From NCBI RefSeq assembly GCF_019801465.1, contig NZ_JAHVJA010000002.1, forward strand, positions 496,001-560,000: a stretch of 64,000 nt of DNA, given 5' to 3'. A program made the position numbers and the translations under genes. This DNA comes from Leisingera daeponensis (GTDB lineage: Bacteria > Pseudomonadota > Alphaproteobacteria > Rhodobacterales > Rhodobacteraceae). The notes under the pieces are model-generated. The model ran no database searches and had not been told where the DNA came from. It saw only the letters and a program-made list of their open reading frames with translations. Every line of letters starts with the position of its first letter. The first letter of the stretch is position 1. This document shows positions 39,041 through 45,420 of this stretch, piece after piece.

Positions 39041-40093
39041 TCAGGACGGGCTGCCACGCACCTCAGCTGGCCGGGAAGACGCGGGTGGGCTGTCATCGGC
39101 TCCGCCTGTTTTGTCCATGCCTTCCCGGTAGAAGCAGTGCTGCGCCCGCCCAGCACGCTTGGCGGCATAAAGCGCCACGTCCGCCTGGTTCAGCAGTTCC
39201 TGAGCATCCGGCACTTTTTGCCAGGTCGACAGCGTGGTGCCGGCGCTAGCGGAAATCCGGCAAGTCTGGCCAGCAAAGGGAACCGGCTCCTCCAGACGCT
39301 GAATCAGCCGTTTGGCAATCGCCGCCAGCCTAGCGGTATCCAGCACGCCCTCGAGTATCATCACGAATTCATCGCCGCCGACACGGGCAACCGTGTCCGA
39401 CTGGCGGGTGCACTCCACCATAACCCTCGCCGCCTGCTGCAGCACCGCATCACCGGCCGCATGGCCGAGCGTGTCATTCACCTGTTTGAAGAAGTCCAGA
39501 TCCAGGTGCATCAGAGCAAACTCGCGGCCACTGTTGATGAGCCGCGCCAGCACATGATCCATGGCACGGCGGTTCTTCAGACCTGTCAGCGTGTCGGTGA
39601 ATGCTTGCTCCTCCGCCGCGATCTTGGCCCCCTGAAGCCGCAGGTTCAGCTGTCGCGACGCCTCCATCGCGGCCGATTTCGCCTCCACCAGATACAGCAT
39701 CTCGATGGTCAGGTCGGTGGGCGAAAAATCGGCGCTGGTCAAATCGTAGTCGCGCACCGCTTCCAGAACGGAAATCCCGAATGAGAGGTTAATAAATGCT
39801 CCTTGCCCGTCAGGCAGCGGGGTGCACACTCCCTTTAGCCCCGTCTGCGGCGTATCACGGAATTGCAGGTGCAGCTTGCTGCCCGCTGTGCGTTCGAGAT
39901 CCTCAACCGAGCGCACTGAGCGCGGGCGGGACAAATCGAAAACCCGGAAGAACCGCCGCCCTTCCCACGTCAGCCGCGGGCGCAGCTTTTTCAAGGTCGG
40001 CCCCGCGGAGACTATCCGCCCTTTGGCATCGACTATGGCATACATCGGGCAAATCACGCCTGCCATCTGCGTCAGCTGCTGCAATGTCATCAT
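39041..40093 (-). CDS. diguanylate cyclase with N-terminal HNOBA domain
   Basis: A 350-residue protein. Residues about 1-150 fit the HNOBA (heme NO-binding associated) domain that partners H-NOX proteins, ending in the SFGISVLEAVRDYDLTSADFSPTDL region. A short coiled coil follows (about 130-165). A GGDEF domain (about 165-320) follows, with TDTLTGLKNRR, VGGDEF and the inhibitory I-site RQSD five residues upstream of it. Its start overlaps the H-NOX-like gene by four bases. It should make c-di-GMP under control of that partner. Confidence 0.92.
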   Translation of the reverse strand: MMTLQQLTQMAGVICPMYAIVDAKGRIVSAGPTLKKLRPRLTWEGRRFFRVFDLSRPRSVRSVEDLERTAGSKLHLQFRDTPQTGLKGVCTPLPDGQGAFINLSFGISVLEAVRDYDLTSADFSPTDLTIEMLYLVEAKSAAMEASRQLNLRLQGAKIAAEEQAFTDTLTGLKNRRAMDHVLARLINSGREFALMHLDLDFFKQVNDTLGHAAGDAVLQQAARVMVECTRQSDTVARVGGDEFVMILEGVLDTARLAAIAKRLIQRLEEPVPFAGQTCRISASAGTTLSTWQKVPDAQELLNQADVALYAAKRAGRAQHCFYREGMDKTGGADDSPPASSRPAEVRGSPS

Positions 40094-40677
40094 AGGGAAT
40101 GCGCTCCCAAATCAAATTCGCGCCCGGCGGCAAATTTGGTTTCCACCAGGGTGATAGAAATCACTTCGGCACCGCCATGGGTGCCGCTGTGGTCCAGGAA
40201 AACCAGATCCCCGTAATCATCCGCCATCGCCCGCAGCACCCCCATCAGCACAGAGGCATATCCGGGCAACCCCGGCTGGCAAATAAGCTCAAACTGATCC
40301 GGGGCCTGCTCCAGCAGTTCCAGACCAGGCAGGTGCAGATCGGATACCGCCAGTCGCGCCCGGTCCGGCAGGTCGTCCAATGAGTGCAGGAATTCAACAT
40401 AATTCACGCCGCCGAACCGCAGCAGCCGACGCAGCGCCTCGACCTGCGGGTTGGACACCAGGAATGTTCCCATGTCCTCCAGCATTTCCGGCAGCGGCCG
40501 GGCCAGGACCTTTTCCATCGCAGCCAGCATGCTGCCGGACTGCTCTTCGGTATAAAAAAGCATCGCTTCGAACTCAGTAAAGCCGAGTCCGGCCTCATCC
40601 ATGACCTCTTCCCAGCGGTCTGCCCCGTAGGTACTTGTCACAAAAGCCTGAATCGCTCTGTTGATCAGACCGTGCAT
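40090..40677 (-). CDS. H-NOX (HNOB)-like sensor lacking the canonical heme-ligand His
   Basis: A 195-residue protein aligning end to end with H-NOX domains: MHGLINRAIQAFV at the N-terminus, YGADRWEEVMDEAGL, FGGVNYVEFLHSLDDLP and a long C-terminal half. In known H-NOX proteins the segment reads NLDALH with the heme-ligating His; here Pro104 sits at that place. The YxSxR heme-propionate motif is likewise absent (CQPGLPG at the equivalent site). Binding of heme by the usual contacts is therefore doubtful. The stop overlaps the start of the HNOBA-GGDEF gene. Confidence 0.85.
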   Translation of the reverse strand: MHGLINRAIQAFVTSTYGADRWEEVMDEAGLGFTEFEAMLFYTEEQSGSMLAAMEKVLARPLPEMLEDMGTFLVSNPQVEALRRLLRFGGVNYVEFLHSLDDLPDRARLAVSDLHLPGLELLEQAPDQFELICQPGLPGYASVLMGVLRAMADDYGDLVFLDHSGTHGGAEVISITLVETKFAAGREFDLGAHSL

Positions 40678-41071
40678 GCAATGGTCCCTCTTTGCCCATG
40701 CCACAGTCTTGACGCCTGCAGGTTAAGAAAGGCCCAACAAAGCAAACTTACAGGGAAATACGCGCACAATTTTCCCGCTTTCTCATACTCCAGCACGAAA
40801 CCTGCACCTTCAAAATCGACAACCGCGCATCCGCGCGGCCCTGTCATTATATGGCAACCGGCCCCGAGGCCAATCACTTCCGGGGCAATCGCGCAATGTC
40901 GGCACCCGCCCGCTGTCAATCCGGGACGTACGCCATTGCTTTGCGTTGCATGCCCACGCCGGAGGCAGCAAGCCGGCAGGCCCCCGCCAGAACAGAGCGG
41001 ACTCTATCCGGTTTTCGCCAGGCACAAAGAAGCGGAGGCAGGGCCTCCGCTGTCATTTCTGCTATCAAGAC
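40678..41071. other. intergenic region between mttB and the H-NOX gene
   Basis: About 390 bases without a supportable gene. It holds the mttB terminator at its right end and, nearer the H-NOX start, should contain the promoter of the H-NOX/GGDEF unit. Confidence 0.5.
41031..41051 (-). terminator. terminator of the mttB-like gene
   Basis: A perfect 9-bp stem with a 3-base loop (arms AGCGGAGGC/GCCTCCGCT), followed on the minus strand by TTCTTTG. It lies about 20 bases after the mttB stop codon. Confidence 0.7.
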
Positions 41072-42631
41072 TCAGAAATCTGTGGGAGCGCCGCCTTCCG
41101 CCTTCCTCCGAGCCACAAAATCCGCCAGTTCATCCCGGATCCCGGCATCAATCGGCGGTTCCTCGAAACTGCCAATGATCTCTTTATAAATCTTGTGCGC
41201 GCGCTCCGCGGTCCAGGTGGCACCCGCAGCCTCCCAAGCCTCATAATTTCGCCAGTCGCTCAGGAACGGCTGATAGAAGGCCGTGGCATAGCGGTCCTGG
41301 GTGTGCTGGATGCCGAAAAAATGGCCGTCGTTGCCGACCTCGCGGATCGCGTCCAGGGCGATCTCTTCCGGCCCGGTGGCGGAAATCTGTGGCTGCATGT
41401 AGCGTTCGATCTGCTGCAGGATCTCGCAGTCCATGATGAACTTCTCAGGGGACGCGATCAGCCCGCCCTCGAGCCAGCCGGCCGCGTGGTAAACCATGTT
41501 GGTTCCCGACTGCACCGCAGCCCAGAGAGAATTGGAGGTCTCCCAGATCGCCTGCCCGTCCGGCACATTGGCCGCACAGACGCCGGAAGAACGCATCGGC
41601 AAGCCGTAAAACCGCGCCATCTGTCCGGTCATCTGGGTCGAGCGCATGTACTCCGGCGTACCGAAGGCCGGCGCGCCCGATTTCATGTCCACGTTCGAGG
41701 TGAAGGTGCCGATCACGCAGGGCGTGCCGGGGCGCACGTACTGGAACAGCGCAATCGCGCACAGGCTTTCGGCAATCGACTGCGCCACTGCGCCCGCCAT
41801 GGTCACCGGCGCCATTGCCCCCGCCAGGGTGAAGGGCGACACCACGATCGCCTGGCCGCGCCGGGCCAACCGCAGGCAGCCGTCGATCATCGGGAAATCG
41901 TGCTTCAACGGCGAAGTGGAGTTGATGTTTGTGTACATCCGCGGTTTGGCTTCGAATTCCTCGTGGCTGAGCCCGCCTGCAATCCGCACCATCTCCATCA
42001 CATCTTCGACCCGCTCCTTGCCCAGCGAATAGGCATGCATAGCCTTGTCGGTGAGGGTCAGCTTGTCATAGAGCACATCCAGGTGGCGGATCGAGGCATG
42101 AATGTCCACCGGCTCAACCGGGTAGCCGCCGGCAAAGTGGATGCAATTGAAGTACTGCGTCAGCTTCAAGAGGTTGCGGCACTGCTCGCGGTTGCCTGCC
42201 ACTTTGCGGTTGAGCTCCATGTCCCAGTAATTCGGCGGCGAGGACACGTTGCCGAACAGAATGTGGTTGCCGCCCAGCGGAATGGTGCGGTCCGGGTTGC
42301 GCGGGGTGATGGAGAATTCGCGGGGGGCCTTGCCCACCATCTCCATCACGAAATCGCGATCCATCCTGACCAATTCGCCGTCTACCTTCACACCGGCCTG
42401 CTTGAATATCTCCAGCGCTTCAGGGTTCAGGAACACGACCCCGATCTCCTCCAGGATCCGCATGGCGCCTTCGTGGATCGCCTGTATGCCCTCTTCGCTT
42501 AAAGGCTCGGTCGGCCGGTCGATATTGACTGGGATCTGCCAGGGCATCTGCTCCAGCACCGCACTGCCGCGCCGGGCCGCTGCGCCAGCCCTGCCCCCGC
42601 CCCGCCGCTTGCGTGTGCCTGTCTCTGCCAT
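41072..42631 (-). CDS. trimethylamine methyltransferase family protein (MttB, non-pyrrolysine type)
   Basis: A 519-residue member of the MttB superfamily of corrinoid-dependent methylamine methyltransferases. The N-terminus (about 1-25) is Arg/Gly/Ala-rich. The barrel follows, with PSIR-like DIHASIRHLD, then TSPLKHDFPMIDG, and SGAPAFGTPEYMRSTQM. There is no in-frame amber codon, so this is not the pyrrolysine enzyme; characterised relatives of this kind demethylate glycine betaine or other quaternary amines. The ATG at 42631 follows GGGAGG. The substrate here is unproven, and no corrinoid protein is beside it. Confidence 0.88.
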   Translation of the reverse strand: MAETGTRKRRGGGRAGAAARRGSAVLEQMPWQIPVNIDRPTEPLSEEGIQAIHEGAMRILEEIGVVFLNPEALEIFKQAGVKVDGELVRMDRDFVMEMVGKAPREFSITPRNPDRTIPLGGNHILFGNVSSPPNYWDMELNRKVAGNREQCRNLLKLTQYFNCIHFAGGYPVEPVDIHASIRHLDVLYDKLTLTDKAMHAYSLGKERVEDVMEMVRIAGGLSHEEFEAKPRMYTNINSTSPLKHDFPMIDGCLRLARRGQAIVVSPFTLAGAMAPVTMAGAVAQSIAESLCAIALFQYVRPGTPCVIGTFTSNVDMKSGAPAFGTPEYMRSTQMTGQMARFYGLPMRSSGVCAANVPDGQAIWETSNSLWAAVQSGTNMVYHAAGWLEGGLIASPEKFIMDCEILQQIERYMQPQISATGPEEIALDAIREVGNDGHFFGIQHTQDRYATAFYQPFLSDWRNYEAWEAAGATWTAERAHKIYKEIIGSFEEPPIDAGIRDELADFVARRKAEGGAPTDF

Positions 42632-42878
42632 GTTGGCCTCCCGTGAATTCGCGTTTCTCAAGTGCTGATAGGTAATCAATGCGCCAACCCTGTCCGCCCG
42701 GACCTGTCCGTTCCCGACCCAGCATGTCGCTTTTATCGCATCACCTGCCGTGGCAGGCTATTTCTGTACACATATGCCCAGTCAGCCGCAAAGAAATGCC
42801 GGCACACTAATCAGATGCGCCGGCGGATTCGCCTGGGACCGGGCGAAATTTGGGGAATCAGTCGGGATCACGTCCCAT

Positions 42879-43919: not shown

Positions 43920-44025
43920 ACTCCTGCCGCATTGCGGTCAATTTAGTAAAAATCCGAAAGGGTTTCTTAACCAGTCTCAGCAAAACTTCCAGACATAGGA
44001 TTTGCAAGGGGCGAAAGGATACCGC

Positions 44026-45420
44026 GTGCAAGGCACTATCCTGGTCATCGACGGCGTCGCCACCAACCGCATTATGCTGAAGGTGCAGCTGGCGGCTGCC
44101 TACTACGACGCCGTTCCGGCCGGCAGCGTGGCAGAGGTGCTGCAGGCCGCGCGCAGCTGCCGCCCCGACCTTGTGCTTACCGCCATGTCGCTGCCCGACG
44201 GCACCGCCGCAGATGTCAAACGCGCGCTGGCAGGGGATGAGGCGCTGGCTGACCTGCCGGTGATCGCGGTCTCAGACTGGGAAGGGCACAAGGCCCGGCT
44301 GCAGGCACTGGCTGCGGGCATTGACGACGTGCTGCAGCAGCCGGTGGACGACGTTATCCTGCAGGCCCGTATCCGCAGCCTGCTGCGCGCCCGCAGCGCC
44401 AGCGAGGAGCTGAACCTGCAGCGCGACGCCTCGCATGGTTTCATTCTGCCGCTGTGCGACCGCGCCTGCGCCGAGGATCTGCGCAACGCCACTGTCGCCC
44501 TGGTGGCCGAGGATCCGCGCACCGCTGCGGCCTGGCGCGACCTTCTCTCGGCCCGCCTGCCCTTTGCCCTTCGCACCCATGCCATCGGCGACATCCAGGG
44601 GCTGATGCAGGCACCGGTAGCCGACGCCATCGTCATTGAGTTGAATGAGGCTTCGGCCGGCCCCGGCCTGCGCCTGCTGGCAGATCTGCGCGCCCGCGCG
44701 GCCACCCGTAAATCCGTGGTCATCGCGGTGCCGAACCCGGCTGATCCCCTGATTGCCGCCGAAGCACTGGACCGCGGCGCCCATGACGTTCTGCAAACCG
44801 GCTTCGATGTGGAGGAGCTTGAACTCCGTCTCACCGCCCAACTTCAGCACAAATTCCGCAACGACCAGCTGCGCGACAGTGTCCGAAACGGGTTGCGAGC
44901 GGCAAATCTGGACCCGATGACCGGGCTGTACAACCGCCGCTATGCCAAACCTTTTCTGGACCGGGTGGCGCATTCCGCAGCCGAAACTGGCGAAAAATAT
45001 GCCGTCATGCTGGCTGACCTCGATCATTTCAAGCGGATCAACGATCTCTACGGCCATCCGGCCGGCGATGCCGTGCTGATTGAGGCGGCCCGCCGCATGC
45101 AAGCAGTGCTGCGCCCGGCGGATCTTCTCGCCCGCGTCGGCGGAGAAGAGTTCATGGCAGTGCTGCCGGGTGCTGACGAGGCGGAGGCGGGCCGGACCGC
45201 CATTTCTCTTTGCAACGCCATCAACGGCACTCCTTTTCAGCTGCCGGGCTCCAGCGAGCCGGTCAAGGTCACCATCAGCATCGGTGCGGTGATGGGCGGT
45301 GCCGGCAAGGACGTCAGCACTGCTGCGCTGGTCGAAAAAGCCGACCAAGCCCTCTATGATGCCAAGAACGCAGGCCGAAATCAGGTCACCCTGCCCTCAG
45401 AATGCACTCAGGCGGCCTGA
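44026..45420 (+). CDS. pleD: PleD-like diguanylate cyclase with two degenerate receiver domains
   Basis: A 464-residue protein with PleD architecture: REC1 (about 1-120), REC2 (about 145-270) and GGDEF (about 295-455). The cyclase is intact (MTGLYNRR, LADLDHFKRIND, VGGEEF and I-site RPAD). REC1 has lost the acidic pair (DG), the phospho-Asp (Ala in LVLTAMSLP) and the conserved Lys (Gln in VLQQPVDD). REC2 has no acceptor either. Phosphorylation control therefore looks absent. I chose the GTG at 44026, after AAAGGA; a TTG upstream is an alternative. Confidence 0.9.
   Translation: MQGTILVIDGVATNRIMLKVQLAAAYYDAVPAGSVAEVLQAARSCRPDLVLTAMSLPDGTAADVKRALAGDEALADLPVIAVSDWEGHKARLQALAAGIDDVLQQPVDDVILQARIRSLLRARSASEELNLQRDASHGFILPLCDRACAEDLRNATVALVAEDPRTAAAWRDLLSARLPFALRTHAIGDIQGLMQAPVADAIVIELNEASAGPGLRLLADLRARAATRKSVVIAVPNPADPLIAAEALDRGAHDVLQTGFDVEELELRLTAQLQHKFRNDQLRDSVRNGLRAANLDPMTGLYNRRYAKPFLDRVAHSAAETGEKYAVMLADLDHFKRINDLYGHPAGDAVLIEAARRMQAVLRPADLLARVGGEEFMAVLPGADEAEAGRTAISLCNAINGTPFQLPGSSEPVKVTISIGAVMGGAGKDVSTAALVEKADQALYDAKNAGRNQVTLPSECTQAA

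Follow-up and report, generated by a model that had tools for sequence, protein, structure and literature searches.

The closest described relatives of the protein considered here form group 5 of the H-NOX proteins, which Lee-Lopez and Yukl (2022) built around the P. denitrificans protein and in which, according to their account of the group (PMC8738867), fewer than 10% of the members have the proximal His, most have Pro in its place, and no Cys is conserved; they also raise the question of what group 5 senses. Kumar and Spiro reported that the H-NOX proteins of P. denitrificans and R. sphaeroides are without the proximal His, crediting the R. sphaeroides case to Iyer et al. 2003, and that a P. 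denitrificans hnoX mutant is partly deficient in biofilm and lacks BapA, while a dgcAB mutant overproduces both (PMC5588039). For D. shibae, the HNOX protein with bound nitric oxide (NO) is reported to inhibit the diguanylate cyclase Dgc1 (PMC7232146, PMC8846402). Here we describe a member of this group from Leisingera daeponensis, a species of the Rhodobacteraceae. The window, that is, the whole stretch of 64,000 nucleotides (nt) analyzed (positions 496,001 to 560,000 of contig NZ_JAHVJA010000002.1, assembly GCF_019801465.1), contains a gene on the minus strand for an H-NOX-like protein of the group 5 type, 195 amino acids long (40090..40677, with an ATG start at 40677). It has lost both the axial His and the YxSxR motif, as have more than 90% of its orthologues in the family, yet it is kept under strong selection beside a cyclase gene, and we favor, at somewhat better than even odds, the reading that it is a heme-free pseudo-H-NOX, a regulatory subunit with the H-NOX fold dedicated to the co-encoded diguanylate cyclase and acting on it as a constitutive brake.

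The H-NOX character of the protein is not in doubt. A first-pass annotation, made from the sequence, had aligned it with H-NOX domains along its whole length, and this is borne out by the Pfam HNOB profile (PF07700), which matches it over profile positions 1–156 of 163 with 73.8 bits against a curated cut-off of 25.5, and by computational comparison, which finds in it the H-NOX three-dimensional fold; a search of NCBIfam returned no family for it. In the alignment, Pro104 (codon at 40366..40368, minus strand, counted from the start at 40677) stands opposite His105 of Nostoc Alr2278 and opposite the corresponding His of the D. shibae orthologue, and the proximal His on helix F is thus absent. 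The residues CQPGL (codons 133–137, 40267..40281, minus strand, counted in the same way) take the place of YxSxR. Both replacements are those that the annotation had pointed out. The source genome has a single HNOB gene, as has each of 20 further Leisingera genomes searched, and the nearest named relatives are mostly Leisingera among the best 80 of 299 confirmed loci.

One contig with a close relative (JAHVJD010000007.1, 89% identity of its H-NOX to the window protein) is titled Nocardioides marinus, which is an actinobacterium; the contig is probably a mislabeled Rhodobacteraceae genome.

The loss of the heme features is a trait of the family and not a local oddity. Among 394 genomes of the family, nearly one per genus, the Pfam HNOB profile matches 296 and a profile built on the window protein matches 287. 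Our census takes 282 of the latter, leaving aside two canonical-type matches (G024 and G313), two weak ones (G050 and G240), and an 80-amino-acid fragment (G363), and comprises 283 orthologues from 280 genera, some of them fragments at contig ends. The ligand column holds Pro in 204 and His in 22, followed by Gln (13), Arg (12), Asn (8), Ala (6), Ser (5), Gly (4), Glu (3), Thr (2), and Asp, Tyr, Lys, and a gap (1 each). Of the YxSxR residues, 1 protein has the Tyr, 51 have the Ser, and 12 have the Arg; two of the three occur together in 1, the full motif in none, and the complete propionate clamp is missing from all 283. The 22 proteins with His are also without YxSxR, and among them only that of D. 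shibae keeps the Arg. By comparison, the 30 HNOB loci with the highest scores in the family, a canonical control picked by the score of the Pfam profile and therefore leaving out lower-scoring canonical paralogues, have His in 30, Tyr in 30, Ser in 30, and Arg in 29, with His and the full YxSxR together in 29. A profile search of 289 genomes of the class gave 7 matches, of which three are family members at about 300 bits, one is a canonical-type protein of the family at 109 bits, and three are genomes of other families at 52–103 bits.

The ligand site also varies over short distances. Codon 104 in 21 Leisingera genomes is CCG in 19, CCC in 1, and TCG in 1, which gives Pro 20 times and Ser once; loci named Ruegeria have Ser (10), Ala (3), or Pro (3), and one genus (g211) has both Pro and His. 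The named loci, again the best 80 of the 299 confirmed, were kept out of the census counts, with 72 used in alignment A2 and 41 in alignment A4. On a FastTree tree of 277 of the 283 census rows (6 were too short), the window protein, and Alr2278, at least 16 changes between His and another residue are required, a count that comes from a short protein and carries no direction. One genome (G265, loci L168 and L234) has two group 5 H-NOX genes, with two matches to the HNOBA-type N-terminus beside them.

The first-pass annotation presented a single odd protein; the oddity is real, although the group to which it belongs is family-wide and already published (PMC8738867, PMC5588039). The census has the attributes of group 5, namely, the rarity of His, the prevalence of Pro, and a GGDEF gene next door. 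The P. denitrificans protein (Pden_3719), which is 38% identical to the window protein and has Pro at the ligand site and Ala at position 133, scores 177 bits with the group profile versus 67 with the canonical profile, membership being judged here by profile scores and identity rather than by the similarity network of PMC8738867. We found no essential difference between group 5 and the window gene, which is its Leisingera member. What is added here is the loss of YxSxR throughout the census, on which the passages on group 5 in PMC8738867 and PMC5588039 are silent, the data on rates and selection, and the recognition of D. shibae as an exception.

The partner of the H-NOX protein is equally characteristic. 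The cyclase gene (39041..40093, minus strand) overlaps the H-NOX gene by 4 nt, as annotated, and encodes a protein of 350 amino acids with an HNOBA/PAS-like N-terminus, a long helix (model residues 127–164), and a GGDEF domain (148.5 bits) that carries the GGDEF motif and the RxxD I-site. Its HNOBA score, 21.0 bits, is below the cut-off of 23.4; however, the N-terminal domain matches HNOBA at E ≤ 0.1 in 42 of 42 members, and a profile of this domain finds the beta1 subunit of soluble guanylate cyclase (sGC; E = 0.0014). On these sequence matches, the N-terminal domain of the annotated HNOBA-GGDEF partner is HNOBA-like. With such an N-terminus followed by a helix and a cyclase, the module is laid out like sGC in the order H-NOX, HNOBA/PAS, helix, and cyclase, except that the H-NOX is a separate chain and the enzyme is of the GGDEF type.

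This pairing is near-obligate. A GGDEF gene comes next on the same strand in 278 of the 283 loci, which is every locus that could be judged, as the remaining five offer too short a stretch downstream. It starts between −38 and +105 nt from the H-NOX stop, with a 4-nt overlap in 187 loci if the first start codon in range is taken; the GGDEF motif is present in all 278 partners and the RxxD inhibitory site in 274. In contrast, the gene that follows the canonical paralogues (29 examined) encodes a histidine kinase in 24, a GGDEF protein in 1, and a protein with neither motif in 4. Across the 394 genomes, the H-NOX profile and the HNOBA N-terminus are found together in 284, one alone in 3 and the other alone in 2, and neither in 105, these being lists compared by eye in which 2 of the 284 (G024 and G313) are the canonical-type matches.

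The annotation had further remarked that the gene is kept in spite of these losses, and the substitution pattern agrees. Over 210 pairs from the 21 Leisingera genomes, the ratio of nonsynonymous to synonymous divergence (dN/dS, as summed dN over summed dS) is 0.044 for the H-NOX gene and, over the first 900 nt of its cyclase partner, 0.061. The H-NOX gene is therefore strongly held by purifying selection in Leisingera and is not a pseudogene; a sequencing error is likewise rejected, as none of the 21 genomes has His at this site. Meanwhile, the constraint has shifted away from the old heme sites. When 188 sites are ranked from the fastest, the old ligand site, within a mostly slow helix, comes 81st, the old Ser site 45th, and the old Arg site 18th, whereas the 45 slowest sites include RRLLRF (83–88) and MADDYG (151–156), two blocks that are almost invariant throughout the family, together with E67, D68, G70, Trp22, R186, and F188.

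As residues that might still hold heme, the first-pass annotation had put forward His98 or His115. Neither is supported. His98 is present in all 21 Leisingera genomes and in 161 of the 283 orthologues, and His115 in 17 and 19, respectively; both are thus variable in the family, and neither compensates for the missing His104, since His98 accompanies it in 13 of 22 proteins and occurs in 148 of the 260 without it (Fisher p = 1.0), the figures for His115 being 0 of 22 and 19 of 260 (p = 0.38). Both candidates were rejected. Nor does a shift in the alignment mask a His at the proximal position, an outcome that the annotation had envisaged: the D. shibae His falls in the same register, and 103 of the 260 His-less proteins have no His anywhere within residues 93–110. 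The heme-bearing helix contains no conserved replacement ligand. Beyond this helix, His2 (40672–40674), at the start of helix A, is the most plausible candidate.

How would such a protein work? Rupture of the Fe-His bond is described as the likely step by which NO activates H-NOX (PMC12329717), and therefore a protein without the proximal His should rest in an active-like state, being permanently in a His-off condition that resembles the NO-activated one. The subunit would hold no heme b in the normal manner and, by analogy with sGC, would bind the HNOBA/PAS domain of the cyclase, which it would restrain, with less synthesis of cyclic di-GMP (c-di-GMP) as the result; the conserved residues R83, R84, R87, D153, and D154 are predicted to form part of the contact surface. 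The strength of this brake might be set by the expression of the operon or by a non-heme ligand or partner. The His103Gly structure of S. oneidensis H-NOX reportedly mimics the active state; to judge by its title, this structure is entry 2kil. The P. denitrificans orthologue has Pro at the ligand site and its hnoX mutant has a phenotype, which indicates that a His-less orthologue works in vivo. If D. shibae is taken as the model, the active-like state inhibits the cyclase, and if P. denitrificans is, losing the protein resembles losing an inhibitor; a heme-free brake is therefore favored. For the family at large, it is about an even bet that in most members the H-NOX is now a heme-free, contact-only regulator of diguanylate cyclase locked in the His-off state, D. 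shibae being among the few that keep the His or have regained it.

Several observations weigh against a heme-free brake. The His persists in 22 of the 280 genera and has changed repeatedly on the tree, which could mean occasional use of heme; His2 is widely kept and could be a new ligand; and Cys133 at the old Tyr site is found in 142 of the 260 proteins without His104 versus 8 of the 22 with it, a difference that is not significant (Fisher p = 0.12). The D. shibae HNOX is without YxSxR, having C-I-W-H-R there, and yet is listed as a heme sensor (PMC8846402), so that heme binding may survive where YxSxR alone is lost. Kumar and Spiro retain NO as the signal in their model of the His-less P. 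denitrificans protein, and c-di-GMP is reported to be under the detection limit in P. denitrificans (PMC12582929). In sGC alpha, it is an N-terminal extension, and not only the missing residues, that accounts for the absence of heme (PMC8196705). Finally, no measurement of heme on a His-less group 5 protein was found in the literature searched, in which many journals are not covered; PMC9143464 treats, in its relevant passages, the R. capsulatus cyclase gene and not its H-NOX, and PMC9756655 does not mention H-NOX or HNOB.

One alternative is that the protein still carries heme on a new axial ligand, of which His2 is the most plausible, and that the sensing of NO or another gas is retained. 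Residue 2 is His in 250 of the 283 orthologues, against Lys (26), Tyr (3), or Leu (1) in the 30 canonical loci, and it evolves slowly (rank 146 of 188, counted from the fastest). The D. shibae protein, which is listed as a heme sensor (PMC8846402), combines His2 with the absence of YxSxR, though it also keeps the normal His. However, His2 is about equally common with His104 (18 of 22) and without it (232 of 260; Fisher p = 0.29) and so lacks the pattern expected of a replacement; 12 of the 283 have none of His2, His98, His104, and Cys133; and the propionate clamp is gone from the whole census. We consider retained heme unlikely on this account, and we hold it just as improbable that the cyclase is controlled by some other ligand, small or hydrophobic (such as a lipid or a metabolite), which now occupies the old heme pocket. 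That possibility would give the conserved fold and partner an input, but has no known ligand to recommend it.

Less probable still, and by some way, is redox sensing through Cys. The V. cholerae H-NOX has a documented heme-free redox role (PMC7108781), a parallel to the heme-free action proposed for the window protein, and the old Tyr site most often carries Cys (Cys133, in 150 of 283). Yet the V. cholerae protein has the His and a zinc site of three Cys, and the window protein, with a single Cys in its whole length, has neither; a three-Cys zinc site is thus impossible within one chain. Furthermore, 28 of the 283 orthologues contain no Cys and 74 contain one, counts on which a Cys/zinc redox site was rejected, the P. 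denitrificans orthologue has Ala at 133, and no Cys is described as conserved in group 5 (PMC8738867). As for a decaying remnant of a heme sensor, retained only through its linkage to the cyclase gene, the erosion of both heme features and single internal stops in three loci (G196, G290, and G216) speak for it; it is already contradicted by the selection on the Leisingera genes, by the near-invariance of RRLLRF and MADDYG across the family, and by the deletion phenotype in P. denitrificans (PMC5588039), and we give it hardly any credence.

A precedent for a heme-less H-NOX is known in the alpha subunit of sGC. Its pseudo-H-NOX is without the His in the human protein or without YxSxR in that of a moth and has no heme (PMC8196705), and it too belongs to a cyclase with a PAS/HNOBA domain. 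There are differences: in sGC alpha the H-NOX is a fused domain of a guanylate cyclase and has an N-terminal plug in the pocket, whereas the window H-NOX is a separate chain with a GGDEF partner and starts at MHG, as do its relatives in the alignment, without an extension. It is therefore an analogue of sGC alpha and not a member of that class. The canonical H-NOX proteins (Nostoc Alr2278, S. oneidensis, and the paralogues in the family) share with it the fold, Pro117, and a similar length, but keep the His and YxSxR and have the different gene neighbors given above. The D. shibae pair (Dshi_2815 and Dgc1) has an orthologue of 46% identity, the same gene pair, and the same type of partner; it differs in that the His is still there (GLDDLH), as is the Arg from the YxSxR motif (CxWxR). 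Because it is one of the 22 His-bearing exceptions in the census, its NO sensing should not simply be transferred to Leisingera.

This matters for the way the family is presented: reviews give the D. shibae protein as its sensor linking NO to c-di-GMP, but 260 of the 283 relatives examined are without the heme ligand of that protein. If the heme-free, contact-only reading holds for the family, the label "NO sensor" would be wrong for more than 90% of the genera carrying the group. Bacteria would then have their own equivalent of the sGC alpha pseudo-H-NOX, with an input that is new, either another ligand or the level of expression only. A heme-less H-NOX with a known partner enzyme offers a direct route to what the H-NOX fold does without heme, and it bears also on the unexplained alpha H-NOX of sGC.

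The control of the pair has been studied in relatives: in D. shibae it answers to quorum sensing (PMC6473078) and, as in Phaeobacter inhibens, to the CtrA phosphorelay (PMC11974857), and hence it links c-di-GMP with the change from a motile to an attached way of life and back. In the window, the region upstream of the H-NOX gene (40678..40770, minus strand) contains the element TTAACC, at a distance of about 49 nt from the ATG, and 21 of 21 Leisingera genomes have it. We take this element to resemble a CtrA half-site; no complete CtrA-like site (TTAA-N7-TTAA) turned up upstream of the gene. Among the orthologues, 254 of 281 have TTAA in the 120 nt upstream of the gene, versus 18 of 276 at 150–270 nt and 12 of 275 at 300–420 nt, control stretches that could be coding sequence and have a higher G+C content than a promoter. 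This enrichment fits the CtrA control reported for the relatives.

Further upstream, on the plus strand and so opposite to the H-NOX gene, at a distance of about 3.3 kb, lies a gene (44002–45420) for another diguanylate cyclase, which combines two response-regulator stretches with GGDEF and which we take to be PleD-like. Between the two is a gene of the trimethylamine methyltransferase (MTTB) family (41072–42679), a homologue of which is near the pair in 68 of the 80 named loci (the best 80 of 299). The legend to figure 6 of PMC8738867 includes both MTTB and HAD as neighbor families. In Phaeobacter sp. G2 (CP104104.1), a strain from an Emiliania huxleyi culture, an HAD-MTTB-H-NOX-GGDEF block is carried on a 120-kb plasmid.
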